IMG/VR virus record: IMGVR_UViG_3300036846_000595
Location: 1 to 20,948 of that record
DNA from: a virus
Length of the DNA: 20,948 nt
Direction: 5' to 3' (one strand)
Under the pieces are notes generated by a model. The model worked only from the letters and a program-made list of their open reading frames with translations. It searched no databases and was not told the DNA's origin. The translations under genes and the position numbers were made by a program. Below are positions 291-10,941 of the stretch, in pieces; positions within the stretch are counted from its first letter, which is position 1, and the number at the start of each line of letters is the position of its first letter.

Positions 291-320
291 CTTGCAGTTG
301 ATGCAAGATAGAGCCGCTAT
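291..320 (+). promoter_or_regulatory. Rightward early promoter with overlapping palindromic operator
   Basis: CTTGCA (291-296) works as a -35, with an 18-base spacer and CGCTAT (315-320) as a weak -10. The same bases form a perfect inverted repeat: CTTGCA, spacer GTTGA, TGCAAG (291-307). A regulator bound there would cover the -35 and part of the spacer. It is the only clear promoter for the plus-strand operon beginning at 472, leaving a leader of about 145 bases. The first 14 bases (CTTGCAGTTGATGC) recur exactly at 10681-10694 in another promoter. Confidence 0.55.
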
Positions 321-427
321 CCGATTCAGTTCGCTACGGCCGATTCGGTGCGCTGTGTCGGGACAGAGCATCGCGGTCGGCCGTGAGGTGCGCGCCACGA
401 GCTGAGTTGGGTCCCGTGTGGAGGTTC

Positions 428-460
428 GGGGGCGGTCTGGTCGGGCCGCCCCCGGAGGGG
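428..460 (+). promoter_or_regulatory. GC-rich leader hairpin next to the first ribosome binding site
   Basis: GGGGGCGG (428-435) and CCGCCCCC (446-453) form an eight-base perfect stem with a ten-base loop. The next bases, GGAGGGG (454-460), are the purine-rich ribosome-binding region of the gene at 472. CCCC (449-452) can instead pair with GGGG (457-460), so the two folds exclude each other and one hides part of the Shine-Dalgarno. There is no U-run, so it is not an ordinary terminator. A translational or antitermination role is possible but unproven. Confidence 0.35.
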
Positions 461-471
461 AGAGAGTCGAA

Positions 472-885
472 ATGATCAAATACCGCATTCAAGTGACGGT
501 CGACGCCGAGCGCCTGCCGGAGATCGTGTCGGTCGTCTATCAAGCGCCGCTGGCCTTCGACCCCGAGTTGAAGGTTTACACGGCGACAGCCCCCGCAGCG
601 ATCGCAACCAAGGCGCCGCCTGCTGCGCCCAAGCCCAAGCGGCGCTCGCCCGCCACACCGCGCGAGATGGGCAAGCGCGGGACCGCCGTCGAGGAAGCCC
701 TGAAGACGGGACCTAAGCGATGGACCGACCTGAAGAAGGCGATTGTGGACGCGGGGCTCCCCGAATCGACGCTCAACAGCCTGATCAGCAAGTGGCAGAG
801 CGAGGGGAAGATCGAGCGCGGCCCGCACGGCCTCTGGCAGCTGGTCGAACAGAAAGGGCATTCGCATGTCGAGGCGCAGGCCTGA
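472..885 (+). CDS. Hypothetical protein with C-terminal winged-helix-like domain
   Basis: First gene of the early operon, 137 residues. The start at 472 (MIKYRIQ) is preferred over the upstream in-frame start at 418, because 418-471 falls in the leader hairpin and reads as low-complexity Arg/Gly. The N-terminal 45 residues look like a small beta-rich unit. A Pro/Ala/Lys linker (about 46-65) follows. Residues 69-124 look like a winged helix: a helix (TAVEEALKTG), WTDLKKAIVDAG, the recognition-like STLNSLISKWQSEGKIE, then a GPHGLWQL wing. This fits a DNA-binding accessory protein, but no named family is recognised. The stop overlaps the next gene by 20 bases. Confidence 0.8.
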   Translation: MIKYRIQVTVDAERLPEIVSVVYQAPLAFDPELKVYTATAPAAIATKAPPAAPKPKRRSPATPREMGKRGTAVEEALKTGPKRWTDLKKAIVDAGLPESTLNSLISKWQSEGKIERGPHGLWQLVEQKGHSHVEAQA

Positions 886-1309
886 CGAACCTGAAAGGTT
901 CCTGACCGACTTTCCCGACATGCCTTGGTGCGGTCAGTACATCCTTGGCGGCGAGGAAGGGCACACGCCCATCCCCTGCTATTCGCTGACCGAGTGGGGC
1001 CAGTTCCTGGCGGATCGCGAGCGCGTAATTGTCGCCCGCACCGGCAACGAGACCAAGTGGGTCTCGACGGTGTTCCTCGGCATCGATCACCAGTTTTGGC
1101 ACGGGCCGCCGCTCGTCTTCGAGTCGATGGCGTTCGTAGACGAGGGCCGCACCATCGAGTGGGAGGACGGCGAGCGGATGTGGGTGCCCACCCCTCTCGA
1201 TACGGAGCGCTATTCGAGCTGGGACGACGCCGAGATTGGCCACAAGGCAATGGTGCGCAAATGGCTGATCGACGCCAAGACCCGCGTGAGGGCCGATGAG
1301 GCTTCTTAA
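866..1309 (+). CDS. Conserved phage hypothetical protein (GIDHQF / GPPLVFES type)
   Basis: 147 residues with no signal peptide or membrane segment. The centre carries VSTVFLGIDHQF (66-77) and PPLVFESMAF (81-90), and the end carries RYSSWDDAEIGHKAMV (115-130). These blocks match, from memory, a widespread small protein seen in actinobacterial and proteobacterial phages whose function is unknown. The conserved His, Asp and Glu residues could be structural or catalytic; nothing here decides. It starts inside the preceding gene, with an AAAGGG ribosome binding site about nine bases upstream, and overlaps the next gene by 14 bases. Confidence 0.85.
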   Translation: MSRRRPDEPERFLTDFPDMPWCGQYILGGEEGHTPIPCYSLTEWGQFLADRERVIVARTGNETKWVSTVFLGIDHQFWHGPPLVFESMAFVDEGRTIEWEDGERMWVPTPLDTERYSSWDDAEIGHKAMVRKWLIDAKTRVRADEAS

Positions 1310-1553
1310 GAAAAAGGCCCCGCCAGCGCTGCTTGGCTTCGCCGAGGGGCGCTCCAGCAACTTCCTCGTGAACGGCGTGCGATTCGCCGTCCTGCGAGAC
1401 GGTGCCGAACTCTCGGTCTGCTTGGCTCACGAGGTCGATGCTGGCCTGCCCTCGAAGGGCGAGCGCGAGATTGAACAAATGGCCGACGCGCTCCAGTCGC
1501 TCAAGGCGGCGAAGGAAGCCTACGAGAAATTCATGCGCGGCGACAAGCCATGA
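1296..1553 (+). CDS. Hypothetical protein, 85 residues
   Basis: Short soluble protein of unknown function. The N-terminus is basic (MRLLKKKAPP), the middle (FLVNGVRFAVLRDGAELSV) looks like beta strands, and the C-terminal third (residues about 57-80) is a charged helix, REIEQMADALQSLKAAKEAY. No motif is recognised. It overlaps the upstream gene by 14 bases and the downstream start by four (ATGA), so it is almost certainly translated as part of the operon. The ribosome binding site is weak (GAGGG at 1288-1292, close to the ATG), which fits translation by coupling. Confidence 0.75.
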   Translation: MRLLKKKAPPALLGFAEGRSSNFLVNGVRFAVLRDGAELSVCLAHEVDAGLPSKGEREIEQMADALQSLKAAKEAYEKFMRGDKP

Positions 1554-1888
1554 AATATCGCGAACGGATGAGCATCGGCGATAAATTCGGCAGGCTTACC
1601 GTCATCGGGTTTCGGCCAGCAAAACCGCGATCCTTCGCCATCTGCCGATGCGAGTGCGGCGCACAAAAAGATGTGCGGAGACCTCATTTGCAGACAGGCG
1701 CCACCAAGTCCTGCGGCTGCTTAAACCGGGAGCTTTCAGCCGAACGCATGACACATGGCCAAGCCCGTTGCCGAGCTGGGCGCAAACCGACCCGTGAATA
1801 TACTGCTTGGATAAATGCGCGTCGGAGCGCGGAGGGCCGTGCTCGCTGGCCAGATTTCCTCACTTTTCTCGCGGAGAGAGGCCGGTGA
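1550..1888 (+). CDS. Zinc-binding protein of the phage HNH/AP2-associated type, apparently shortened
   Basis: 112 residues. The N-terminal half has the layout common to phage HNH/AP2 homing-endonuclease-like proteins: GDKFGRLTVIG (10-20), a CRCECG cluster (32-37), then TGATKSCGCL (49-58). Together these look like a four- or five-cysteine zinc ribbon. After REYTAW (82-87), such proteins usually continue with an RC-x(n)-YGGRGI-V block before a W-x-F-x-x-F end. Here the chain goes almost straight to RWPDFLTFLAERGR, so about 20 residues are missing. It may be a nuclease remnant or a compact DNA-binding form. It overlaps both neighbours by four bases (ATGA and GTGA). Confidence 0.75.
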   Translation: MKYRERMSIGDKFGRLTVIGFRPAKPRSFAICRCECGAQKDVRRPHLQTGATKSCGCLNRELSAERMTHGQARCRAGRKPTREYTAWINARRSAEGRARWPDFLTFLAERGR

Positions 1889-2817
1889 TCCATAGCTGGC
1901 CAATTACAAGCCGGGAGGAATGGCTTGCGCGCCGACGCAAGAACGTCAACGCGAGCGAAGTCTCCGCGCTGTTCGGTCCGGACATTCATCCGTCGCTGAC
2001 TCCATACAAGCTCTGGGCGCTCAAGTGCGAGAAGGTCCCCGACGAGGGCGACAACCCCACGATGCGGCGCGGGCGCAAGTTTGAGCCGGTCGTCCTCGAT
2101 ATTTTGGCTGAAGAAAATCCGACGTGGCGACTCCGTAAGGCCGAGGTTTATTTCTGGGACGACGAGACGCGGCTGGGCTGCACCCCTGATGCATATGAGA
2201 CCCGGCCCGACGCCTATGGGGACGGCATCGTCCAAATAAAAACCGTTGGCCAATTTGCTTTCCGCCGTCGCTGGCATGATGAAAACGGAGACATCGCTGT
2301 CCCCACTTGGGTCGCCGTGCAGGCGTCCGTCGAGGCCTATCTGACCGGCGCAACACGGGCAGGAGTCGCCGCTCTGAGGCTTGGCGACGGCGGAATCGAC
2401 GTCATCTATATCGACATCCCGCTCAAGCCGCACCTGATCCACGCGATCGAGGATCAGGTCGCCGAGTTCTGGTACCGGGTCAAAGAGAACCGGCCCTACG
2501 ATCCGGACTTCGGCCGCGACCGCAAGCTCATCTTCGACATGTATTCGGAGGGCAAGGGGCCGATCATCGATCTATCGGCCGACGCCGAGTTCGGCGAGAT
2601 CCTGCAAGAACGCGCGCAGTTCAAGGAAGTCGAGAAGGCGGGCGAGAGCGCCGCCAGTCAGCGCAAGATTCTCGACGCGCGGATCATTCAGAAGCTTGGC
2701 AACGCGCCGAGCGCGCGCAGCGGCATGCGCGTGGTCACTGTCAAGCTGGTGAAGAAGAAGCCCTACACCGTCAAGGCGCAGCAATACCCGCTCGTAACCG
2801 TGAAGGGAGCCGCATGA
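1885..2817 (+). CDS. YqaJ-family phage exonuclease
   Basis: 310 residues, the size of a phage YqaJ/lambda-exonuclease-like nuclease. It would chew 5' strands of double-stranded DNA ends to make single-stranded tails for the RecT protein encoded next. Visible core: NASEVSALFG (22-31), RRGRKFEP with Glu67, TPDAYE with Asp102, and VQIKT (116-120). A QASVEAYLTGA helix follows, as in YqaJ proteins. Gln117 sits where lambda exonuclease has Glu in its E-x-K motif. The start is GTG 1885 rather than ATG 1807, because GTG overlaps the previous stop in GTGA, has GGAG at 1873-1876, and begins just before the conserved domain. It overlaps the RecT gene by four bases. Confidence 0.9.
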   Translation: MIHSWPITSREEWLARRRKNVNASEVSALFGPDIHPSLTPYKLWALKCEKVPDEGDNPTMRRGRKFEPVVLDILAEENPTWRLRKAEVYFWDDETRLGCTPDAYETRPDAYGDGIVQIKTVGQFAFRRRWHDENGDIAVPTWVAVQASVEAYLTGATRAGVAALRLGDGGIDVIYIDIPLKPHLIHAIEDQVAEFWYRVKENRPYDPDFGRDRKLIFDMYSEGKGPIIDLSADAEFGEILQERAQFKEVEKAGESAASQRKILDARIIQKLGNAPSARSGMRVVTVKLVKKKPYTVKAQQYPLVTVKGAA

Positions 2818-4052
2818 TGGCGAATGAAATGACGGTCGCACAGGAGCTGGGCTCGAAGGTCAGTCAGTTTGAGGCCGCGCTGGCCGGGAGCGGAATCTCG
2901 GCCAAGAAATTCACGCGCGTCATCATGACGGCAATCGCCCTCAACCCCGATTTGCTCAATTGCGATCGGCGCAGCCTCATGAACGCGGCGCTGAAGGCCG
3001 CCAGCGACGGGCTCGTGCCGGACGGCATCGACGGCGCCCTCGTTCCGTTTGAGGGCAAAGTCCAATGGATGCCGATGATCGCGGGCATCCGCAAGAAGGT
3101 CCGCCGGAGCGGAGAGGTGACGAGCTGGGACGTGACGACGGTCTGCGCCAAGGACTTCTTTGACTTCGAGCTGGGCGACGATCCGTTCATCAAACACAAG
3201 CCATGGATGGCGCCCGAACTGGCCCGCCACGAGGGCGAAGAAGAGGCCGATTACCTCAAGCGACTCCGTGCCCATGTCGATCGCGGCCCAGCGACTTACG
3301 TCTATTCGGTCGCGAATATTAAGGGCGGCGGCAAGAGCCGCGACGTCATGTCCCGCACCGAGGTCGAGCTGGTGCGTGACATGTATGCGAAGAAGAACCG
3401 CAAGGGCGAGTTCAGCCCAGCATGGCGCAAGAGCTTCCCCGAAATGATGAAGAAAACGGTCGCGCGGCGCCACGCCAAGCAGCTGCCGATGTCTAGCGAC
3501 ATCCTCGCTTTGCTGTCGCGGGACGATGACCTATATGATCTCGGTGAAGGGCGCGGCGACCGGATTCAGGCCCCGCGCGATCTGAGCGATCGACTAGACG
3601 TTTTGTCGGGGTATCACCCCGAGACCGGCGAATTTGCTGAACCTGTTGATGAGGTGTCGACTCCCTCATCTCAGAGCGCGGCCCCTGATGACATTCCCGC
3701 CATAGGCAGCGGGGACGAGGGGGCCGCGCAACCTTCCGGGGATGGATCCCCTGCCCCGGAGCGCGTGGGCGATGAATCACCATTTGTCGCAGCCACGCAG
3801 CCCGAGCCAGTGGTCGCACAACTATCTGGCTCGCAAGCGCCACCGGGGGCTGCGCAAACCCCCGCGCCAGCTCCCGGTGGGTCACGCGATCTCCTCACCC
3901 CGACAATCGAACAGCGCGGCGAAGGCATGGCCAAGAAAGGCCGCAACGCGCTTGAACGATGGGTGAACGAGCTGCCCCCGGACGAGATGGCCCGGATCTC
4001 GCTGGCGCAGCTCAAAGCATGGCGCGGCGTCGCTGACAAGGCGGGCGCGTGA
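2814..4052 (+). CDS. recT: RecT-family single-strand annealing protein
   Basis: 412 residues. RecT proteins coat single-stranded DNA and anneal complementary strands during phage recombination and replication. The core is residues about 7-235 and includes LMNAALKAASDGLVPDG, WMPMIAGIRKKVRRSG, the YVYSVANIKGGG strand and KSFPEMMKKTVARRHAKQLP. Residues about 250-370 are a Pro/Ala/Ser-rich disordered linker, followed by a compact charged tail (375-412, GRNALERWVNELPPDEMAR). RecT is usually nearer 270-330 residues, so this one is extended, as in some proteobacterial phages. The start is ATG 2814 in an ATGA overlap with the exonuclease. ATG 2817 has better spacing from AGGGAG (2804-2809) and is equally possible. 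Confidence 0.92.
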   Translation: MMANEMTVAQELGSKVSQFEAALAGSGISAKKFTRVIMTAIALNPDLLNCDRRSLMNAALKAASDGLVPDGIDGALVPFEGKVQWMPMIAGIRKKVRRSGEVTSWDVTTVCAKDFFDFELGDDPFIKHKPWMAPELARHEGEEEADYLKRLRAHVDRGPATYVYSVANIKGGGKSRDVMSRTEVELVRDMYAKKNRKGEFSPAWRKSFPEMMKKTVARRHAKQLPMSSDILALLSRDDDLYDLGEGRGDRIQAPRDLSDRLDVLSGYHPETGEFAEPVDEVSTPSSQSAAPDDIPAIGSGDEGAAQPSGDGSPAPERVGDESPFVAATQPEPVVAQLSGSQAPPGAAQTPAPAPGGSRDLLTPTIEQRGEGMAKKGRNALERWVNELPPDEMARISLAQLKAWRGVADKAGA

Positions 4053-4453
4053 TGGCCAGCTTCGCCGCTAAAACCAAGGTGCCGGTCGAGAAAACCCGCA
4101 TCGAGATCGAGCGGCTGGTGAAGAAGTACGGCGCCAAGGGTTTCGTGAGCGGCTGGCAAGGCCCACAGGCCCGGATCGAGTTCCTTTGCGCCGACCGTCA
4201 CATCCGCCTTTCGGTCATTGTGTCCGACCTCGACCGCCAAGGCCCGCAGAAGTGGCGGACGCTACTCCTCCTCGTGAAGGCCAAGCTCGCCGGAGTCGAA
4301 GCCAAGATCGTGACCTTCGAGCAAGCCTTTGTTGGCGACATCGTTATGCCGGACGGGCGCACGGTGTGGGAGGCCACGCGCGAGCCGATCAAGCTCGCCT
4401 ACGAAGGCAAGCCCGTTCAACTGTTGGAAGGAACCCATGGCCGGACCCCTTAA
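4052..4453 (+). CDS. Conserved phage hypothetical protein beside recT
   Basis: 133 residues, soluble. It has an N-terminal helix (KTRIEIERLVKKYGA), a beta section (FVSGWQGPQARIEFLC, IRLSVIVSDLD), then WRTLLLLVKAKLAGVEAKI, FEQAFVGDIVMPDGRTV and an AYEGKPVQLL end. This combination recurs in phage recombination and replication regions, from memory, without a known function; a nucleic-acid-related role is inferred only from position. The ATG at 4052 overlaps the recT stop by one base (TGATG). A GTG at 4049 would give a four-base overlap. It overlaps the following HTH gene by 17 bases. Confidence 0.85.
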   Translation: MASFAAKTKVPVEKTRIEIERLVKKYGAKGFVSGWQGPQARIEFLCADRHIRLSVIVSDLDRQGPQKWRTLLLLVKAKLAGVEAKIVTFEQAFVGDIVMPDGRTVWEATREPIKLAYEGKPVQLLEGTHGRTP

Positions 4454-4760
4454 GCTCCACCGCAGCTACAACTTTGTCGACAAGCATTCGATCGTCGACG
4501 AGATCAGAACGGCGATTCAGGACAGCGGCGAGCCTATCGAGTACATCGCCCGCAGCGCCGAGCTGAACCCGCACACGCTCCATGCGTGGCTGAGCGGCAA
4601 GACGCAGAAGCCATACACGGCTAGCGTCGAGAAGGTGGCGAGGGCGCTGGGCAAGCGCCTGACGCTGATCGACGGCGAGTTGCACATGGGCGAGGTCGTC
4701 CCCCTCCACCAGAAGACGCCCCGGCGCCATGCCGCTTGGGGCTGGAGGCGCTATCAGTGA
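4437..4760 (+). CDS. HTH (XRE-like) DNA-binding protein within the early operon
   Basis: 107 residues. Residues 18-77 form an XRE-like domain: SIVDEIRTAIQDSG, then EYIARSAELNPHTLHAWLSG (35-54) as the helix-turn-helix, then a supporting helix VEKVARALGKRLTLI. The start at 4437 is chosen because GGAAGG (4426-4431) lies five bases upstream and the longer in-frame extension from 4329 lies inside the previous gene. The C-terminal 25 residues are basic. As a second regulator inside the early operon it could be the Cro-like partner of the protein at 11-229, or a regulator of later genes. It overlaps the next gene by four bases (GTGA). Confidence 0.85.
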   Translation: MAGPLKLHRSYNFVDKHSIVDEIRTAIQDSGEPIEYIARSAELNPHTLHAWLSGKTQKPYTASVEKVARALGKRLTLIDGELHMGEVVPLHQKTPRRHAAWGWRRYQ

Positions 4761-4975
4761 CCATGACGCGCGACGAATGGCTCGCCGATCTGAAGAAGCG
4801 CGCCTTGGAAGTCGCCCGCGCTGGCGATCTCGCGCACGCCGTCGCCATGATGACGGTCGAGGTCAACCGGCGGCCGGACAGCAAGGTGCATCACGCTTTC
4901 TCGCTCGCCGGGACGATGCGGGCGATGAACGAGGACCGGCAAGGCGTCATCGACTGGATTGAGAGCTTCGCATGA
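4757..4975 (+). CDS. Small helical hypothetical protein, 72 residues
   Basis: A soluble, mostly helical protein (WLADLKKRALEVARAGDLAH, AVAMMTVEVNRRPD). Its A-x-x-G-D-x-x-x-A spacing recalls a single TPR-like helical pair, but one repeat is too little to assign. The start is GTG 4757: it overlaps the preceding stop (GTGA) and has GGAGG (4744-4748) eight bases upstream. The internal ATG at 4763 is 14 bases from that site. It overlaps the next gene by four bases (ATGA). Confidence 0.75.
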   Translation: MTMTRDEWLADLKKRALEVARAGDLAHAVAMMTVEVNRRPDSKVHHAFSLAGTMRAMNEDRQGVIDWIESFA

Positions 4976-5169
4976 GAGTCGAATATTTCACGCTGGTGAT
5001 GCAGATTCTGATCCTCGCCTTCGTCAGCTGGACGACATGGAGCATATTCCAGAGCACGAGGCTGACGCGGAAGACGACGGCGCTGATCGAGGGGTATCGA
5101 CGAGAGCTTGGATGGCTGGAGGCGCGCATGACCGCGCTCGAAGCTCGACGAGGGAGGGCAGAATCATGA
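4972..5169 (+). CDS. Small single-span membrane protein with coiled-coil tail
   Basis: 65 residues. One hydrophobic segment (about 8-26, LVMQILILAFVSWTTWSIF) is followed by a positively charged turn (RLTRK) and a helical charged tail (EGYRRELGWLEARMTALEAR) able to form a coiled coil. The positive-inside rule puts the tail in the cytoplasm. The size and shape recall phage membrane anchors and spanin-like or exclusion proteins, but no specific family is recognised. It is linked to both neighbours by four-base ATGA overlaps. Confidence 0.75.
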   Translation: MRVEYFTLVMQILILAFVSWTTWSIFQSTRLTRKTTALIEGYRRELGWLEARMTALEARRGRAES

Positions 5170-5417
5170 CGGATAAAAAGGTGGTTGCAGCGGGCGATCT
5201 GATTCAGGTGAACGAAGACGGCCCGGGGCATTGGTTCCGGTGCATCCTCGTGGTCGACTCGGTCAAGGGCTGGGGCGTGCAGGCCTATTGCGTGATGCCC
5301 GCCGCGCGCGGCCGACCGTCCGGCGACGCCTACATGCGGCTTGAATGGAAAGAGTTCGACACGCTGGGCGTCAAGTCGAAATTCGTGGCGTGCGAGATGC
5401 CGCAGACGACGCTTTAA
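5166..5417 (+). CDS. Small phage hypothetical protein, beta-rich
   Basis: 83 residues, soluble. The sequence (VAAGDLIQVNEDGPGHWFRC, ILVVDSVKGWGVQAYCVMP, AYMRLEWKEFDTLG) looks like a small SH3-like or OB-like barrel. Proteins of this look are frequent in phage early regions with unknown function. The start at 5166 is supported by the ATGA overlap and by AGGGAGGG (5151-5158) seven bases upstream; the in-frame extension from 4959 is rejected. It is followed by the operon's only clear gap, 15 bases. Confidence 0.8.
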   Translation: MTDKKVVAAGDLIQVNEDGPGHWFRCILVVDSVKGWGVQAYCVMPAARGRPSGDAYMRLEWKEFDTLGVKSKFVACEMPQTTL

Positions 5418-5432
5418 CCAAAGGAGGAAACC

Positions 5433-5906
5433 ATGACGCTGACCAGCCTACTTGCCTTCGCTTCGGGCGCGGTGATGGCGCGATTCAAGAAAGAGCCCGT
5501 GCTGGAGGAGAAGGACCAGCGCATCGCCGAGCTGGAGGCGCTCTGCGATCGGTTCGGCATCGCCACGAGTTCGCTGTCCGCGCACCTGACGGAGGCGAGG
5601 GCTGAGAGCGCTGCGCTCCGCCAAACGCTAAGGCAAACTCGCGCCGAGATCACCGACCTCTACGCTGGCGTCTATGCGAGGCCGCTCAGCCCGGAACAGC
5701 AGGCCGAGTTCGCTCGCCAGTTCGGAGAACAGCGCAATCCGCAGTTCCAGATGCAAGCCGGTCTCGCGTACCCCGTGCCGGGTCAGGTGCTGCGCGAGTT
5801 GAGCGAGTTCGACTGGCGGAGCTGCACATGCGTTCCCGGCCGCGCCGACGCGCTCCGCAGGATCGTTGAGCCGGATGGGCGTATCAGCCGCCAGCGCGAT
5901 CTGTGA
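5433..5906 (+). CDS. Hypothetical protein with N-terminal hydrophobic segment and coiled coil
   Basis: 157 residues. A short hydrophobic N-terminus (TLTSLLAFASGAVMA) could be a membrane anchor or signal. It is followed by a heptad-rich helix (about 22-75, EEKDQRIAELEALCDRFGIA through RQTLRQTRAEITDLY). The C-terminal half is Gln-rich and then ends with SEFDWRSCTCVPGRADALRR. No family is recognised. It has the best ribosome binding site of the operon, AAGGAGG at 5421-5427, and follows its only real gap, so its translation is probably independent. It overlaps the next gene by four bases (GTGA). Confidence 0.75.
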   Translation: MTLTSLLAFASGAVMARFKKEPVLEEKDQRIAELEALCDRFGIATSSLSAHLTEARAESAALRQTLRQTRAEITDLYAGVYARPLSPEQQAEFARQFGEQRNPQFQMQAGLAYPVPGQVLRELSEFDWRSCTCVPGRADALRRIVEPDGRISRQRDL

Positions 5907-6106
5907 CCAAGTGCATCTGCGGCGAGGACCATGAGCGCCACCCCGTTCCTCTGCTGAGCATGGGGATCTCGACGACCGACGAAGTCATCAGCGTCGAGCC
6001 CTTCACAGCGGAGGACGGGCGCCGCGCTTGGCGTTGCCTGATGGCGGACGGCAAAAGGGAGATCGTTGTCGAACTCCGGGAGGCGCCAGCTAAGGGGGGT
6101 ACTTAA
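5903..6106 (+). CDS. Small hypothetical protein with N-terminal CxC
   Basis: 67 residues starting at GTG 5903, which overlaps the previous stop in GTGA. The N-terminus carries KCICGEDHERH, whose two Cys and two His might bind a metal. The rest (DEVISVEPFTAEDGRRAWRC, REIVVELRE) looks like a small beta sheet. No family is recognised. It abuts the next gene with no gap. Confidence 0.65.
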   Translation: MTKCICGEDHERHPVPLLSMGISTTDEVISVEPFTAEDGRRAWRCLMADGKREIVVELREAPAKGGT

Positions 6107-6640
6107 GTGGAAAAGAGTCGAAGAGAATGCGGGAGCTGCACGCTCTGTTGCAAGCTCCTGCCGGTAAAGACCATCAGAAAACCAGCGAACACGCGCTGTC
6201 CGCATCAATCGTTCAAGGGATGCCGCGTCTACCATAAGCCCGAGAAAGGGTTCCCGTGGGAGTGCGGCCTATGGGAGTGCGTCTGGCTGGCGAACAACGA
6301 GGCGGAGGGCCTGCGCCGCCCTGATCATTGCCACTACGTGGTCGATATCATGCCCGACTACGTGACCAACGAGATGTCCGATGGGCAAAAGATCGTCATC
6401 CCGGTCGTGCAGATCTGGGCCGATCCGAAATATCCTGACGCCCACCGCGATCCCGCACTGCGGGCTTGGCTCATTCTCCGCAACGGATACTGCGGGCTCG
6501 TCCGCAACGGCAACGCCGACGGGCTCCTGATCGTGCCGCCGTACCTGAACGATTCGGGCAAATGGATTGAGAAGGGCAGCAATATGAAGGAGGAAAACCA
6601 TTCCTTCGGCCAAGTCCTTCAGGCGTTGGGTGCGGCGTGA
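6107..6640 (+). CDS. Cysteine-cluster protein (YkgJ-like N-terminus)
   Basis: 177 residues. The N-terminus has C-x2-C-x2-CC (Cys8, 11, 14, 15), then RCPHQSFKGCRVY (Cys31, Cys39) and ECGLWEC (Cys53, Cys58). That pattern fits the CxxxCxxCC-type zinc or iron-sulphur cluster proteins (YkgJ family), whose biochemical role is poorly known. The second half (about 80-160) is ordinary alpha/beta with IVPPYLNDSGKWIEKG near the end. It starts at GTG 6107, immediately after the preceding stop, with a G-rich ribosome binding site at 6094-6099. It overlaps the next gene by four bases (GTGA). An RNA- or DNA-linked role is not shown. Confidence 0.8.
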   Translation: MEKSRRECGSCTLCCKLLPVKTIRKPANTRCPHQSFKGCRVYHKPEKGFPWECGLWECVWLANNEAEGLRRPDHCHYVVDIMPDYVTNEMSDGQKIVIPVVQIWADPKYPDAHRDPALRAWLILRNGYCGLVRNGNADGLLIVPPYLNDSGKWIEKGSNMKEENHSFGQVLQALGAA

Positions 6641-6963
6641 GGCGCGCTATCATCGCCTCGCTCGCTATGCTGGTGGCGACCGACACGGCCTCGGCATGCC
6701 ACCGATTCAGCCGCTGGTACTATCCTTACCGCCAGAGCTGCCGGGTGACGGCGCTGGCCCCGCGCATGAGGTTTCGGCTCCCGCGCGCCCGGATCAATAT
6801 CCACCTAGTGACGGAGGCCACGCCGCCGCACCGAATCGCGACGTCGGTCCCGGACATCCCGCTGCCGGATCTCGTCGACATCGATTGGGGGCATCCCCCC
6901 GATGAAGACACGCGCGGGCGCCTACTCCTGCGCGTCATACTCCAAGGAAAGGAAGACAAATGA
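6637..6963 (+). CDS. Small secreted hypothetical protein
   Basis: 108 residues with a clear signal peptide: MRR, a hydrophobic stretch (AIIASLAMLVA), and an A-S-A cleavage site before Cys21. The Cys follows Ala-Ser-Ala rather than a proper lipobox, so signal peptidase I is more likely than lipoprotein processing. The mature protein starts CHRFSRWYYPYRQSC, rich in aromatic and basic residues. The start is GTG 6637 in a GTGA overlap. A secreted product in an early operon could act in the periplasm on the host envelope, but the target is unknown. Confidence 0.75.
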   Translation: MRRAIIASLAMLVATDTASACHRFSRWYYPYRQSCRVTALAPRMRFRLPRARINIHLVTEATPPHRIATSVPDIPLPDLVDIDWGHPPDEDTRGRLLLRVILQGKEDK

Positions 6964-7286
6964 GTGACGAAGCCCAAGCCCACGCCTCTTACGAGGTGCC
7001 CGGTGGCATCCATCGCGAGACGATCCATCCGACCGTGGACCCGGCGGCGCCCTTTCACCGGATTCTCCGAGACATCCCGCCACGGGAGCGCCCAGCCGAG
7101 CCGCCCTCCGAGCTGGCGAACATGGTGACGGCCGACGCGGTCAAGCGCTCCGAGGCCCGCCGCGACGCCATCCTCGCGGTCGCGCTCGCCGTCAAACGAC
7201 GCGGGCAGAATCCGATGACGGACTGGACGACCAAGGACACGGATACAGCCTACGCCATTGCGGAACAGCTAATCGCGCTCGCATAA
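6960..7286 (+). CDS. Hypothetical protein, last gene of the early operon
   Basis: 108 residues, soluble. The N-terminal half is Pro-rich and probably flexible. The C-terminal half (about 55-108) is helical: VTADAVKRSEARRDAILAVA, then TDTAYAIAEQLIALA. No family is recognised. The start is ATG 6960 in an ATGA overlap, with AAGGAAG a few bases upstream. A 7-base inverted repeat (AGCTAAT 7267-7273 with ATTAGCT 7286-7292) spans its stop codon, and the next promoter's -35 follows directly. Confidence 0.75.
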   Translation: MSDEAQAHASYEVPGGIHRETIHPTVDPAAPFHRILRDIPPRERPAEPPSELANMVTADAVKRSEARRDAILAVALAVKRRGQNPMTDWTTKDTDTAYAIAEQLIALA

Positions 7287-7291
7287 TTAGC

Positions 7292-7321
7292 TAGACAAAA
7301 GATGCAAATCGGCCCTACGAT
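7292..7321 (+). promoter_or_regulatory. Promoter for the structured intergenic RNA
   Basis: TAGACA (7292-7297, five of six matches to TTGACA), an 18-base spacer and TACGAT (7316-7321). The spacer starts with AAAGA then TGCAAATCGG (7303-7312); the same ten bases occur at 8324-8333 upstream of the PEP-CTERM genes. The start site would be about 7328, which coincides with the first base of the RNA's closing stem. Confidence 0.5.
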
Positions 7322-7326
7322 TGCCC

Positions 7327-7448
7327 CGTTAACCGGAGGAACCGGGGTCCCACAACCCCAGTTCTATCAGCACACACCCGGTTGACGCAGCAGGAAGGGG
7401 GGCCTCTCCCCAAGAGCCGCCACACTCCATGGAGACGGCCTCCCTTCC
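7327..7448 (+). ncRNA. Candidate structured small RNA between early operon and PEP-CTERM genes
   Basis: Three nested elements are visible. First, CGTTAACCGG (7327-7336) pairs with CCGGTTGACG (7378-7387) over ten positions with one G-U. Inside it, GGGGT (7344-7348) pairs with ACCCC (7355-7359). Second, GGAAGGGGGGCC (7393-7404) pairs with GGCCTCCCTTCC (7437-7448) over twelve positions with one G-U, extended by TCTCC/GGAGA (7405-7409 with 7431-7435) around one bulged C. A promoter places the start at about 7328. The 3' end is not clear; hairpins continue to 7520. No plausible reading frame is confined to it. No known RNA family is recognised. Confidence 0.5.
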
Positions 7449-7460
7449 AAGCATATCGCA

Positions 7461-7490
7461 AAGAAAAGGGGAAGGCCGAAGCCTCCCCCC
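7461..7490 (-). terminator. Intrinsic terminator of the leftward PEP-CTERM gene
   Basis: On the minus strand, GGGG-AGGC (7488-7481), a TTCG tetraloop and GCCT-CCCC (7476-7468, one bulged base) form a strong hairpin followed by TTTTCTTT (7467 down to 7460). It lies about 45 bases past the PEP-CTERM stop. A second hairpin, CGACCAC/GTGGTCG (7498-7504 with 7514-7520), lies between. On the plus strand the hairpin has no U-run. Confidence 0.8.
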
Positions 7491-7531
7491 ACGGGACCGA
7501 CCACTTGAGCGGCGTGGTCGAGCCCTAACTC

Positions 7532-8251
7532 CTAGAACGCGAAACGCGCCTGACGCGACTTACGCACGCCCAAGAATCCCAACAGACCAAAGCCAATCGC
7601 CATCATCGCCCAAGTCGAGGGCTCCGGCACTATGGCCTGCATCGACTGATCGAAGCCGGTCACCGAGGCTCCGCCGATGAGGTTGAGGCTCGCCGACTCT
7701 GTCATCGAGAACGGGCTGTCGGCGATGAACCCCGTGGTCGTGGTGCCGCTAAAGCTGTCAGGATTCGTCGCTGGCGTGCCGGACGTGCTGAGCAGCGCGA
7801 TGCCCGGTGTATTGGTCGGGTTCGCCCCCTGCACGTTGGCGGGATCGGCAAAGAAGCTGAGCGTTGATGGCCCTGACCCGACAGCCGAGTTGAAGGTCAA
7901 CGACCCGCTCTCCGTGATGCTCTTGACCGGCGCGAGGAAGTTGGTGTCGCTGGCCACGAGGCCGACGGTGATCGGGGCGCCCGTCTCATTGATGATGTTG
8001 GCGCTGGACAGCTGCAAATCATCGGGCGGACCGAATGCGCTTTGAGTGAGCGTGAGCTGGACGAACGCGCCGCCGATCACGGTGTTGATGGTCAACAGGT
8101 TGTTCGCGAGGCTGGAATTATCGCAACTCAGCTGACCATCGAAGCACGAGAACGTGGCGCCATTGGCGGTGATACTGACTTGCAACCGGGCGTCGGCCGA
8201 CGTCGCGCCCAGCGCGGCGAGAAACGCAGTAGACAACAATAATTTGTGCAT
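7532..8251 (-). CDS. PEP-CTERM (PEPxxWA-type) surface protein 1
   Basis: 239 residues. It has a signal peptide (MHKLLLSTAFLAALGATSADA), a beta-rich Ser/Thr/Gly/Asn-rich body with one close Cys pair (CFDGQLSC), and a C-terminal sorting signal starting at residue 208: VPEPSTWAM, a hydrophobic segment, then an Arg/Lys tail. PEP-CTERM proteins are exported, cut and probably anchored by a host exosortase; many are linked to exopolysaccharide or cell-surface roles. The start at 8251 is chosen because AGGGG lies just upstream with good spacing; ATG 8257 is possible. It has its own terminator and stands divergent from a second PEP-CTERM gene. No exosortase gene is in the window, so processing would need the host. 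Confidence 0.9.
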   Translation of the reverse strand: MHKLLLSTAFLAALGATSADARLQVSITANGATFSCFDGQLSCDNSSLANNLLTINTVIGGAFVQLTLTQSAFGPPDDLQLSSANIINETGAPITVGLVASDTNFLAPVKSITESGSLTFNSAVGSGPSTLSFFADPANVQGANPTNTPGIALLSTSGTPATNPDSFSGTTTTGFIADSPFSMTESASLNLIGGASVTGFDQSMQAIVPEPSTWAMMAIGFGLLGFLGVRKSRQARFAF

Positions 8252-8270
8252 GAGCATCCCCTGTGGTTCG

Positions 8271-8289
8271 GTCGTAGGGCTACTACGAC
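8271..8289 (-). promoter_or_regulatory. Perfect inverted repeat in the PEP-CTERM 1 leader
   Basis: GTCGTAG (8271-8277), a five-base loop and CTACGAC (8283-8289) form a seven-base perfect stem about 20 bases before the start codon at 8251 and just upstream of its ribosome binding site. It could be an mRNA leader hairpin or a protein-binding operator distinct from the TTGCA palindromes. Confidence 0.4.
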
Positions 8290-8312
8290 TCCATGACCAT
8301 TTGAACACTAAT

Positions 8313-8329
8313 CTTGCACGAAATGCAAA
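8313..8329. promoter_or_regulatory. TTGCA-N5-TGCAA palindrome upstream of PEP-CTERM 1
   Basis: CTTGCA (8313-8318), spacer CGAAA, TGCAAA (8324-8329). The layout is the same as at 291-307, 8385-8401 and 10681. Read leftward, the element would overlap the -35 of the gene starting at 8251, but the matching -10 (GTTCAA or TTCAAA at 8306-8300) is weak, so that promoter may need activation. Its centre is 72 bases from the centre of the palindrome at 8385-8401, about seven helical turns. Confidence 0.5.
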
Positions 8330-8384
8330 TCGGTGACGGCGGCGCTTGGGCGGTGCGAGGCGTTTTGGTCGCCATCGTGACCTG

Positions 8385-8413
8385 TTTGCGAGCAGTGCAA
8401 ATCAATGTATGGT
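8385..8413 (+). promoter_or_regulatory. Rightward promoter of PEP-CTERM 2 with overlapping palindrome
   Basis: TTTGCG (8385-8390) as -35, a 17-base spacer and TATGGT (8408-8413) as -10, leaving a leader of about 80 bases before ATG 8503. TTTGCG-AGCAG-TGCAAA (8385-8401) repeats the palindrome layout over the -35 and spacer. The -10 hexamer is the same as the one proposed for the HTH gene. Confidence 0.5.
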
Positions 8414-8502
8414 GAAGACAGCCTCGCATTGCCCAAAGCGTGCGAGGGTTTAAGGTCGTGGCTCCAGCCATGATCTGGGATCTTTTGAAGGGGTACACAA
8501 AA

Positions 8503-9195
8503 ATGAAAAAGCTACTTTTAACAACGACGCTGCTGGCCGCGATGGGAGCGGTTCCGGCGAGGGCGGCGGTCACCGCCACCTTCTGCGGCCCCTCCACCGA
8601 GGGCGGGACGTGCGAAGGACCGGGTGAAACCAAGGTGTTTCTCAATGAGGGGCACACCGAAGCCTCCGGCTCAGGCACGGTCGGCACGAGCGGACCGACG
8701 CTTCTGTTCAGCGTCGATGGCGGCGCGCTCGACACGCGGGTCGACACTGGCGGCGGCTTCGCCAACATCACGTCGGCCGGGGCCGACAAGATCGCCGACT
8801 TCAACGGGATCGACATCACCATCCCCGGCTTCACCTTCACTGACATCGCGTTCGACGTGCAGTTGAACCCGACCGAGGAGAGCGGCATCGACACGTTCAC
8901 CGCAGAGGCCTTCTCCGGCGCCCACATCAGCGATGGCGTTTTCATCGGCTCAGATACGCCCGACGACGACAAGCAGTTCTCGCTGACGGCGACGGGCGGG
9001 GCGTTCGACGAAGTCAATCTTCTGAGCGCCGATGGCTTCAAGGAGATCAAGCACATCGAAATCTCAGGGATCTCTCCGATTGTTTCGGCGGTGGTGCCCG
9101 AGCCTTCGACCTGGGCCATGTTCATCGCTGGCTTCGGCTTGATGGGCTTGATGGGCTGGACACGTTCGCGCCCTGCGCGACTTAATTTGTCGTAA
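8503..9195 (+). CDS. PEP-CTERM (PEPxxWA-type) surface protein 2
   Basis: 230 residues. It has a signal peptide (MKKLLLTTTLLAAMGAVPARA), a beta-rich acidic body with an early close Cys pair, and a sorting signal from residue 198 (VPEPSTWAM, hydrophobic GFGLMGLMGW, then RSRPAR). The start at 8503 has AAGGGG about nine bases upstream; the in-frame extension from 8440 is not a plausible signal peptide. The body shows no obvious similarity to PEP-CTERM 1 beyond the signal and sorting ends, so the pair is not a recent duplication. It has its own promoter and a strong terminator, a cassette-like layout typical of accessory genes in phages. Confidence 0.9.
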   Translation: MKKLLLTTTLLAAMGAVPARAAVTATFCGPSTEGGTCEGPGETKVFLNEGHTEASGSGTVGTSGPTLLFSVDGGALDTRVDTGGGFANITSAGADKIADFNGIDITIPGFTFTDIAFDVQLNPTEESGIDTFTAEAFSGAHISDGVFIGSDTPDDDKQFSLTATGGAFDEVNLLSADGFKEIKHIEISGISPIVSAVVPEPSTWAMFIAGFGLMGLMGWTRSRPARLNLS

Positions 9196-9216
9196 GCATT
9201 GCTTTAAGGCGTACCC

Positions 9217-9256
9217 GGGCGGCAGAGTATCCCCATCTGCCGCCCAACTCATTTTT
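9217..9256 (+). terminator. Intrinsic terminator after PEP-CTERM 2
   Basis: GGGCGGCAGA (9217-9226) and TCTGCCGCCC (9236-9245) form a perfect ten-base stem with a nine-base loop, followed by AACTCATTTTT. It lies about 20 bases after the stop at 9195 and separates the gene from the membrane protein at 9276. Confidence 0.9.
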
Positions 9257-9275
9257 CGGGTCCGGGGACTTCGCA

Positions 9276-9533
9276 ATGCGCCATCTGATCGAGCGGTGGT
9301 TCAGGCCATCCGGCAATCTCGGCCTTCACATGACCGGCAGCGGCATGGTCTTGTTGATGGTCTCGCTTCTTCTCAGTCACCTGTCGCCCCAGCCGATGTC
9401 TTTCGATCCCGACGACTGGCTGGCCGCCAGCCGGGTGATTGGTTACGTGGCGGGATGCTGGGCGATGTGGCTCATCGGCGCTCTTTTGGTGATCGCTGGC
9501 GCCGCGCGAATTTTATCCATGCTGGATGAATAG
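9276..9533 (+). CDS. Small membrane protein with two hydrophobic segments
   Basis: 85 residues. Two hydrophobic stretches (about 22-34, GSGMVLLMVSLLL, and 53-79, RVIGYVAGCWAMWLIGALLV onward) are joined by a polar loop with SFDPDDW. The size and layout would allow a holin or a membrane exclusion protein, but no family signature is seen, and a holin would be expected beside an endolysin, which is not found here. Only a weak ribosome binding site is visible. It is preceded by the PEP-CTERM 2 terminator and followed by a perfect hairpin at 9543-9577. No clear promoter of its own was found, so read-through may express it. Confidence 0.65.
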   Translation: MRHLIERWFRPSGNLGLHMTGSGMVLLMVSLLLSHLSPQPMSFDPDDWLAASRVIGYVAGCWAMWLIGALLVIAGAARILSMLDE

Positions 9534-9542
9534 CGAATCAGC

Positions 9543-9577
9543 GGCGGCGGCGCTGTGGGAGGTTGGGCGCCGCCGCC
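9543..9577. terminator. Perfect 11-base GC stem between convergent genes
   Basis: GGCGGCGGCGC (9543-9553) and GCGCCGCCGCC (9567-9577) pair perfectly with a 13-base loop. It follows the plus-strand gene ending at 9533 and faces the minus-strand virion genes ending at 9650. There is no good U-run on either side, so it may act with Rho or block transcription collisions rather than be a simple intrinsic terminator. Confidence 0.5.
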
Positions 9578-9649
9578 AGCCTCATCTTCTCCAAGCCCGA
9601 ATCCAGTGCGCTTCCGGCCCGCTCTCGGAGACGATTCGGTTCCAGCAGC

Positions 9650-10666
9650 CTACCACCTCATCATTTTAATGGTGCAAGTGGTCGGCTGGATGTTGTTATG
9701 CGCCGCCCAGCCGCCCTGCGCACCGATGTAGATGTTGGCGTAGCCGGTCCCGACGTAGACGTTTGGCTGGCGCGCGTCGGTCGTGCCATTGGCCAGAGTG
9801 AGAACACCGCTGGTCCCGCTCGCGGGGCCGTAGCCTCCAACAATCACCTGTCCGCCAGTGACGTTATGGCTATGGGCGTCCTGCGAGGCGCCATGGCCAT
9901 GGCCCGAATCGCCGCTGCCCGGATGGTTGTGCCCCGGCATTTCCGCAATCGAAATTTGATGATTCGCCTCGCCTGCGAAGGTCGTGACGCCCCAGCTGTT
10001 GAGGATGCCCCGGTTGCCCTCGTTGACGGCGTAGGGTCCGGAGGACGGGAGAGTGCCGACCTGATCCGCCATCGCTAAGACCGTTCCGCGATAGTCCGGA
10101 AGCTTGAATGAGCCGCCGCTGATTCCCCAAGTGCCGCCGACGACGTCGTAAAGGATGTCGTGCAGGGCTTGGCTGACCCACCGGCCGTCGCACGGCAGCC
10201 AGCCATTGCCGATCCAACCCACTGGAATGTCGGCGACCGTCGAGGGATTGATGCTTCCATAGTCCCACATGACTCGCCAAGGCAGGACGACGATGCTGTA
10301 GGGGATGCCGAACGAGGTCCAGAAATAGATGCCGTTCCCGTCGCTGCCATTGTTGCCGCGCACGTAGAGCGTGTGGCCGTTGAGATTGATGCCTTGAACG
10401 ATGACGCGCTTCCCGGACGGCCCCGGATTCGGAAAGTAGAGATATTGATCGCTGGAAAGCGTGCCGCCGAGACTGATGACCTGATTGGACGCCTCGGCGA
10501 GCGTCAATAGGTGCGCCCCGCCGCTCAGCGTGAGCGAGAGAAGCCCGCCATACGCCGTGTCCAGCGTACGGAGCGAGCCGTCCATCGGGTTGTCCCACCC
10601 GGTGGTGGCGTAGTCGCCGTGGGCGGGGATCTCAAGCGCTAGGTTGGGGGTGAAGGTCGAGGCCAA
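9650..10666 (-). CDS. Phage tail-collar / short tail-fibre protein
   Basis: 338 residues. The N-terminus (MASTFTPNLALEIPAHGDYA, then DNPMDGSLRTLD) is the conserved virion-attachment start of many phage fibre proteins. Residues about 147-200 form a tail-collar domain: VGWIGNGWLPCDGRWVS, then a GTWG turn and FKLPDYRG. A His-rich stretch follows (EMPGHNHPG at 242-250, GHGHG, HSHN), like the HxH metal-binding regions of trimeric short tail fibres. It probably binds the host surface. The start is TTG 10666, kept because it gives the conserved N-terminus exactly and GGGGGAC lies about five bases upstream. It is separated from the other leftward virion genes by one reversed gene. Confidence 0.88.
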   Translation of the reverse strand: MASTFTPNLALEIPAHGDYATTGWDNPMDGSLRTLDTAYGGLLSLTLSGGAHLLTLAEASNQVISLGGTLSSDQYLYFPNPGPSGKRVIVQGINLNGHTLYVRGNNGSDGNGIYFWTSFGIPYSIVVLPWRVMWDYGSINPSTVADIPVGWIGNGWLPCDGRWVSQALHDILYDVVGGTWGISGGSFKLPDYRGTVLAMADQVGTLPSSGPYAVNEGNRGILNSWGVTTFAGEANHQISIAEMPGHNHPGSGDSGHGHGASQDAHSHNVTGGQVIVGGYGPASGTSGVLTLANGTTDARQPNVYVGTGYANIYIGAQGGWAAHNNIQPTTCTIKMMRW

Positions 10667-10680
10667 GTCAGTCCCCCAAT

Positions 10681-10709
10681 CTTGCAGTTGATGCGAATTG
10701 CACTATGTT
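10681..10709 (+). promoter_or_regulatory. Promoter of the reversed membrane gene, with the early-promoter motif
   Basis: CTTGCA (10681-10686), a 17-base spacer and TATGTT (10704-10709): the best sigma-70-like match among the promoters in the window. The first 14 bases repeat those at 291-304 exactly, including the GTTGA palindrome spacer. A second inverted arrangement overlaps it, TGCG-AATT-GCAC (10692-10703). Transcription would start near 10716, about 19 bases before GTG 10735. Confidence 0.65.
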
Positions 10710-10734: not shown

Positions 10735-10941
10735 GTGGTCTTCTTAATCTTATCGCCGGGTGCCTTTATCGCCATCGTCTTGGCCGAGATCATCTGGGGC
10801 GCGCATGACCTTAAGAAACGGCAAGAGCGCGAAAACCCGACGCCAAAAAAGCCGATGGACCCGCGAGAGGAAGGGATGGGGGCATTGCTTGCTTTAATAC
10901 CAATCGTTCTCTTTCTCGCTGGCGCTTTGCTCTTTGGGTGA
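10735..10941 (+). CDS. Small two-span membrane protein, reversed among virion genes
   Basis: 68 residues. It has two hydrophobic segments (VFLILSPGAFIAIVLAEIIW at the start; LLALIPIVLFLAGALLFG at the end) joined by a charged loop (KKRQERENPTPKKPMDPRE) that should face the cytoplasm. The start is GTG 10735: AGGAG at 10722-10726 is eight bases upstream, whereas the in-frame ATG at 10705 lies inside the -10 of the promoter. Its stop is only four bases from the stop of the converging 648-residue virion gene. It has its own promoter and an orientation opposite to both flanking late genes, a typical moron layout. Exclusion or host-membrane modification is possible; the function is unknown. Confidence 0.75.
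   Translation: MVFLILSPGAFIAIVLAEIIWGAHDLKKRQERENPTPKKPMDPREEGMGALLALIPIVLFLAGALLFG

Follow-up and report, generated by a model that had tools for sequence, protein, structure and literature searches.

The C1 repressor of phage P1 acts at 22 operators dispersed genome-wide, those of its own promoters included (PMC8546580), and in phages of the mycobacteriophage L5 type upwards of 20 sites are spread over the genome, within promoters and in short gaps between genes (PMC9283540). In SPbeta a 15-bp repeat, SPBRE, first recognised in silico at about ten intergenic promoters, proved later to be bound by the master repressor MrpR (PMC10516654). Here we consider a comparable element, the palindrome TTGCA-N5-TGCAA (N5, any five bases), in the uncultivated virus record IMGVR_UViG_3300036846_000595 of 20,948 bases, which is the whole stretch analysed and is called the window below. 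Judging from comparison with related records, we consider it probable (roughly 85%) that it is the operator site of a 72-amino-acid (aa) repressor made by the phage itself, a helix-turn-helix (HTH) protein of the XRE family encoded at 11-229 on the minus strand.

The window belongs to a group of uncultured phages with genomes of about 71-78 kb, for which we found no earlier description. It carries the HTH gene, a rightward early operon coding for a RecE/YqaJ-like exonuclease and a RecT-like annealing protein, two PEP-CTERM genes and a tail-collar gene.

Results

The palindromes that a first, sequence-only reading had placed at 291, 8313, 8385 and 10681 are present and all intergenic, with exact copies at 292-306 and 8314-8328 and one mismatch each at 8386-8400 and 10682-10696. 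The 14 identical bases noted at 291 and 10681 (CTTGCAGTTGATGC) were likewise recovered; about 2e-4 such occurrences would be expected, in a window that is GC-rich and repeat-bearing and in which 42 14-mers repeat in total. Taken alone the window gives 9 motif matches at up to two mismatches versus 5.8 expected, which is weak and not significant. The motif is thus weak within the window and overwhelming once relatives are added, so that it is the relatives which decide whether the observation is real.

Eleven related records were gathered from IMG/VR by way of the exonuclease, the HTH protein and a two-site DNA pattern, giving with the window a core set of 12 records (587 kb). Two further hits of the pattern search, L044 and L048, were dropped as repeat-rich chance matches on reading their sequence. 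The core set holds 55 exact copies of the motif, 50 of them in the 10% of the DNA that is intergenic, and every other spacer length (0-4 and 6-20) occurs at most twice. Among all 1024 pentamer palindromes with the same five-base spacer, TTGCA is the most frequent in intergenic DNA (first seven records). The sequence-only reading had proposed a weight-matrix scan of this genome and its relatives, which we ran with a matrix trained on 72 sites from the relatives, window excluded, and a site cut-off of 12 bits. Records of at least 46 kb have 11-18 sites each, 103 of the 123 sites over all 12 records are intergenic, and the motif precedes about 10-18 genes per genome. The window itself has exactly five strong sites, all intergenic, at 26.9, 24.0, 22.0, 17.9 and 17.8 bits; the next-best score is 8.3 bits, in coding DNA, and chance yields 8 bits 1.7 times per window.

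The same reading had named as counter-evidence a motif equally frequent in coding or host DNA, or sites unconserved in related phages. It is not so frequent in coding DNA, and the sites are conserved in the relatives. Five bacterial metagenome-assembled genomes (MAGs) of 2-3 Mb have 0-1 exact copies each, though none is known as the host of these phages and the host may not be among them. An exact copy is missing from 23 of 30 further records, which had been found mostly via their terminase.

Two of the strong sites flank the divergent start of the phage's two early operons, where the features are as follows.

11-229, minus: 72-aa XRE/Cro-type HTH protein, proposed repressor (PF01381, 32.0 bits, cut-off 23; region 11-265)
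256-270: Operator 2 (TAGCGGTCAATGCAA), over the repressor promoter and holding its -35 TTGACC (265-260, minus); matrix score 17.8 bits
292-306: Operator 1 (TTGCAGTTGATGCAA), over the early-operon promoter (-35 TTGCAG 292-297, -10 CGCTAT 315-320); exact motif, 24.0 bits, kept in 10/10 genomes
472-885, plus: opening gene of the early/recombination operon, ahead of RecE/YqaJ-like exonuclease and RecT-like genes (PHROG 434 and 148 downstream)

The HTH gene stands first in an operon that also contains RuvC-like, primase and helicase genes, transcribed divergently from the recombination operon. What had been taken for a half-site at 266-271 is in fact one arm of the full but degenerate Operator 2, which aligns with TTGCATTGACCGCAA on the other strand in relatives. 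For gene-family counts, genes were grouped into families and the close-kin pairs G013/G012 and G004/G003 were each collapsed to one (G014/G015 is a third such pair), leaving 10 distinct genomes. In all ten the early gene has operators upstream and the control region of the HTH gene holds both sites, the latter directly in seven genomes and in three after correction of over-long starts that the gene caller had set too early; measured from the homologous start, both sites lie upstream. The repressor gene's -10, TATGGT at 241-236, ends about 6 nt ahead of the ATG at 229, in the window and in relatives alike. With an ATG so close behind the -10, the repressor mRNA is predicted to be leaderless.

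We then asked which protein reads the motif. The sequence-only reading had proposed a single phage HTH regulator, encoded at either 11-229 or 4437-4760. The idea of a shared regulator stands, and with it the first candidate, whose homologues are found in all core records that bear the sites and whose recognition helix, VHPxTIYR, is invariant among 10 homologues. The second candidate was excluded, as it is absent from six site-bearing records (G003, G004, G014, G015, G016 and G030). The most telling comparison comes from records in which the phage backbone and the helix part company. The distant G030, with an exonuclease 44% and an HTH protein 42% identical to those of the window, retains the helix as VHPVTIYR; its sites number 6 exact and 15 by the matrix, among them one in the HTH-exonuclease region and two in tandem before a PEP-CTERM gene, and TTGCA-N5 is again its top intergenic palindrome. 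G028 shares 61 of 105 genes and has an HTH gene divergent from the exonuclease gene, with the helix VHRTSVYR, and the matrix scan found no site of 12 bits or more there; G045 likewise has none. Sites thus track the HTH protein and not the phage backbone, staying with a nearly identical helix (G030) and vanishing with a changed one (G028, G045), which is the best computational evidence that this protein reads the motif.

An AlphaFold model of the protein (mean predicted local distance difference test score, pLDDT, of 78) resembles 434 Cro and CylR2. The 72 residues comprise the HTH domain only, and the C-terminal S24 peptidase domain of SOS-cleavable CI/LexA-type repressors is absent. Searches found no sequence relative in the PDB and no isolate phage carrying this protein. 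Its matches in bacterial genomes (39-44% identical, mostly Dormibacterota MAGs) were considered as a pointer to the host and gave none.

The sites have a recurrent relation to promoters. As claimed from the sequence, -10-like hexamers stand at 315-320, 8408-8413 and 10704-10709, 16-17 bp past TTGCAN, and across the core set many sites use TTGCAN as the -35 with a -10 16-18 bp further on. Counted from the operator start, TANNNT peaks at +22 and TTGAC at -11 to -9 and again at +5. The second arrangement is that of the promoters of the anti-restriction gene ArdC and of an SNF2-like helicase, in which TTGAC is set 9-11 bp upstream and the spacer is taken up by the palindrome, with its right arm, TGCTA, running into the -10. 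Sites therefore overlie -35 elements or fall between -35 and -10, and since a protein on the operator would block RNA polymerase in each layout, repression is favoured, most likely by promoter occlusion.

Two further features of these control regions were observed. Operators 17-18 bp apart occur in tandem ahead of some genes (G030 15934/15951, G012 47536/47554, G016 18364/18381) and may possibly serve cooperative binding. Leaders of ArdC and SNF2 genes carry a GC-rich hairpin and a T-run between the operator promoter and a GGAG ribosome site (G001 33772, 36683; G003 40341, 42561; G009 4633; G012 35583; G014 68044, 70209; G015 4856; G016 30091), as if they held a terminator or attenuator.

Beyond the divergent control region, the window has the following sites and genes.

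8314-8328: operator of the PEP-CTERM gene 7532-8251; exact motif, 26.9 bits, best in the window
7532-8251, minus: PEP-CTERM exported protein (PF07589 above cut-off; NF035944 34.5 bits, just below the cut-off of 35)
8386-8400: operator of the PEP-CTERM gene 8470-9195 (-35 TTGCGA, -10 TATGGT 8408-8413); 17.9 bits
8470-9195, plus: paralogous PEP-CTERM exported protein (PF07589 above cut-off; NF035944 35.6 bits)
10682-10696: operator of the small membrane gene opposite the collar gene (-35 TTGCAG, -10 TATGTT 10704-10709); 22.0 bits
10735-10941, plus: small membrane protein gene, GTG start at 10735 behind AGGAG
7292-7321, plus: structured-RNA promoter TAGACA-18-TACGAT, with a decayed operator half TGCAA at 7304-7308
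7331-7457, plus: conserved structured RNA of three hairpins, the last terminator-like, with compensatory change in 17 of 30 consensus pairs

Orthologues support the proposed control of the early genes, of both PEP-CTERM genes and of the small gene at 10735. An operator precedes six of the nine PEP-CTERM genes, and in the remaining three the site is degenerate and equally far from the gene (11.7 and 6.5 bits); the distance from operator to PEP-CTERM gene is similar in relatives (62-75 nt). PEP-CTERM homologues occur in seven other core genomes and in G030, and none was found in 50,697 phage records, in isolate phages or in plasmids. The host presumably has an exosortase. Translation of the 8470-9195 gene may start further in, near 8503.

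The 10682 site sits between the collar gene and the small gene on the opposite strand. A seven-genome alignment of this locus keeps the operator, a CTATRT-like -10, CTACAGGAGTCGAA and the start of the small gene in register, so that the small gene is the conserved side. The distance from operator to start is 38 nt in four genomes (window, G012, G014 and G016). The most likely start is GTG 10735; ATG 10705 was set aside because it overlaps the -10.

Other families are preceded by an operator as well, namely ArdC and a structural-region gene (6/6 each), a 92-aa gene (6/6 genomes), the SNF2-like helicase (5/7) and a replicative ATPase (5/8). The ATPase-gene operators lie just before the ATPase gene (G001 25193, G003 31712, G014 59951, G015 70350, G016 41415), in G003 and G014 within a short open reading frame overlapping the ATPase start.

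A promoter followed by the structured RNA stands at the end of the early operon in every relative examined, the RNA being at the same place in G001, G002, G003, G009, G012, G014, G015 and G016. Its first hairpin has an invariant CCCACA loop and compensatory stem changes, and it had no Rfam match. The RNA promoter has an operator in 8/8 relatives (10.7-27.4 bits, two falling below the 12-bit cut). In the window the supposed half-site at 7303-7308 obtains no operator score, and 7294-7308 was rejected as a working operator; what is left looks like a decayed one. The claim that the regulator controls this RNA is accordingly supported in the relatives and not by the window's own sequence. The last RNA loop holds ACCUCCU, like the 16S anti-Shine-Dalgarno, in G001, G003, G009, G012, G014 and G015, and not in the window copy.

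Discussion

We propose that a dimer of the HTH protein would most likely bind TTGCA-N5-TGCAA on one face of the helix and block sigma-70-type promoters by occlusion. The two operators in its own control region would provide autoregulation, and the same protein would shut down the two early operons together with about ten other promoters, among them those of ArdC, the SNF2 helicase, the PEP-CTERM proteins, the structured RNA and the small gene at the tail locus. The purpose would be either to maintain a dormant state or to bring early expression to a close. Control of PEP-CTERM surface proteins and of the structured RNA might further couple the developmental decision of the phage to a small RNA and to host envelope display, a suggestion that we offer tentatively and think somewhat doubtful.

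Several points weigh against this proposal and should be considered. The case for covariation between helix and motif depends on one distant positive and two negatives, several core records are close relatives and hence not independent, and genes were called with a simple home-made script. The structural match of the modelled protein is weak (best E 0.02). Operator position relative to the promoter varies, which is consistent with a repressor, and also leaves room for activation at some sites. The ATPase-gene operators lie inside the replication operon without a convincing promoter; they could be part of a promoter or act as an elongation block, and another action there is possible.

Phages do borrow host operators, and the sites could in principle bind a borrowed host regulator while the phage HTH protein has another target. 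We regard it as improbable, as it sits poorly with the absence of sites from G028, where much of the gene content is shared and the HTH helix differs, and with the two sites that each genome has in the control region of its phage HTH gene; the rarity of exact copies in the five MAGs points the same way, within the limit given above as to their host status. Still less credible, to the point that we give it very little weight, is that the motif is a mere TTGCA-type -35 of the host lineage kept by RNA polymerase. Many sites do have TTGCAN spaced from a -10 as a -35 would be, yet sigma factors need neither the downstream arm TGCAA nor an exact 5-bp spacer, the ArdC and SNF2 promoters have a separate TTGAC as -35 with the palindrome in the spacer, and G028 lacks the motif despite much common backbone.

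A more serious question is whether the HTH protein, at the same operators, works as a Cro-like regulator of lytic growth, shutting off early transcription, and not as a repressor of lysogeny. We rate this as a real contender at a little under even odds; it concerns the timing of action and not the identity of the element, and so overlaps with the operator assignment that we favour. It would suit a single 72-aa domain encoded, as is lambda cro, by the first gene of its operon, here the RuvC-like/primase/helicase operon, and it would suit the scarcity of lysogeny functions, with a tyrosine integrase in G002 and G028 only, of nine records tested, and ParA found in none of the records tested. However, the integrase of G002 and a serine recombinase family common to six records suggest a temperate past or present, and silencing of the accessory PEP-CTERM and ArdC genes would also fit a prophage repressor.

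With the HTH protein as the reader of the palindrome, an uncultured phage group gains a readable regulon in which the operator predicts the controlled genes, PEP-CTERM proteins are linked to phage regulation, and a structured RNA with no Rfam counterpart is exposed. The work also illustrates how relatives can lift an observation that is insignificant in one window alone.

Compared with known systems, the window and its relatives share with P1 C1, L5 and SPbeta the many operator copies at separate intergenic promoters. P1 operators are 17-bp and asymmetric (ATTGCTCTAATAAATTT) and C1 acts with Coi and Lxc, whereas here a 15-bp palindrome would be paired with a single-domain protein of 72 aa. In L5 the sites are asymmetric 13-mers whose orientation follows transcription, in contrast to the palindromic arms seen here, with a core that is found both ways round at one locus, and the repressor of the L5-related TipsytheTRex binds as a two-domain monomer. 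MrpR has a tyrosine-recombinase fold, and the candidate here is a small XRE helix-turn-helix protein, with HTH_3 above its curated cut-off and a gene that adjoins a divergent region holding its proposed palindromic operators. It is like the Cro proteins of lambda and 434 in being a small, single-domain Cro-like HTH protein, encoded by the first gene of the replication operon, with a divergent control region holding two operators. Lambda operators cluster at OL and OR; here, unlike lambda, they are scattered at 10-18 places and no separate CI-like protein was identified. Dispersed phage operators are a known style of control, which in this group is carried out with a 15-bp palindrome and, in all probability, a very small single-domain protein.

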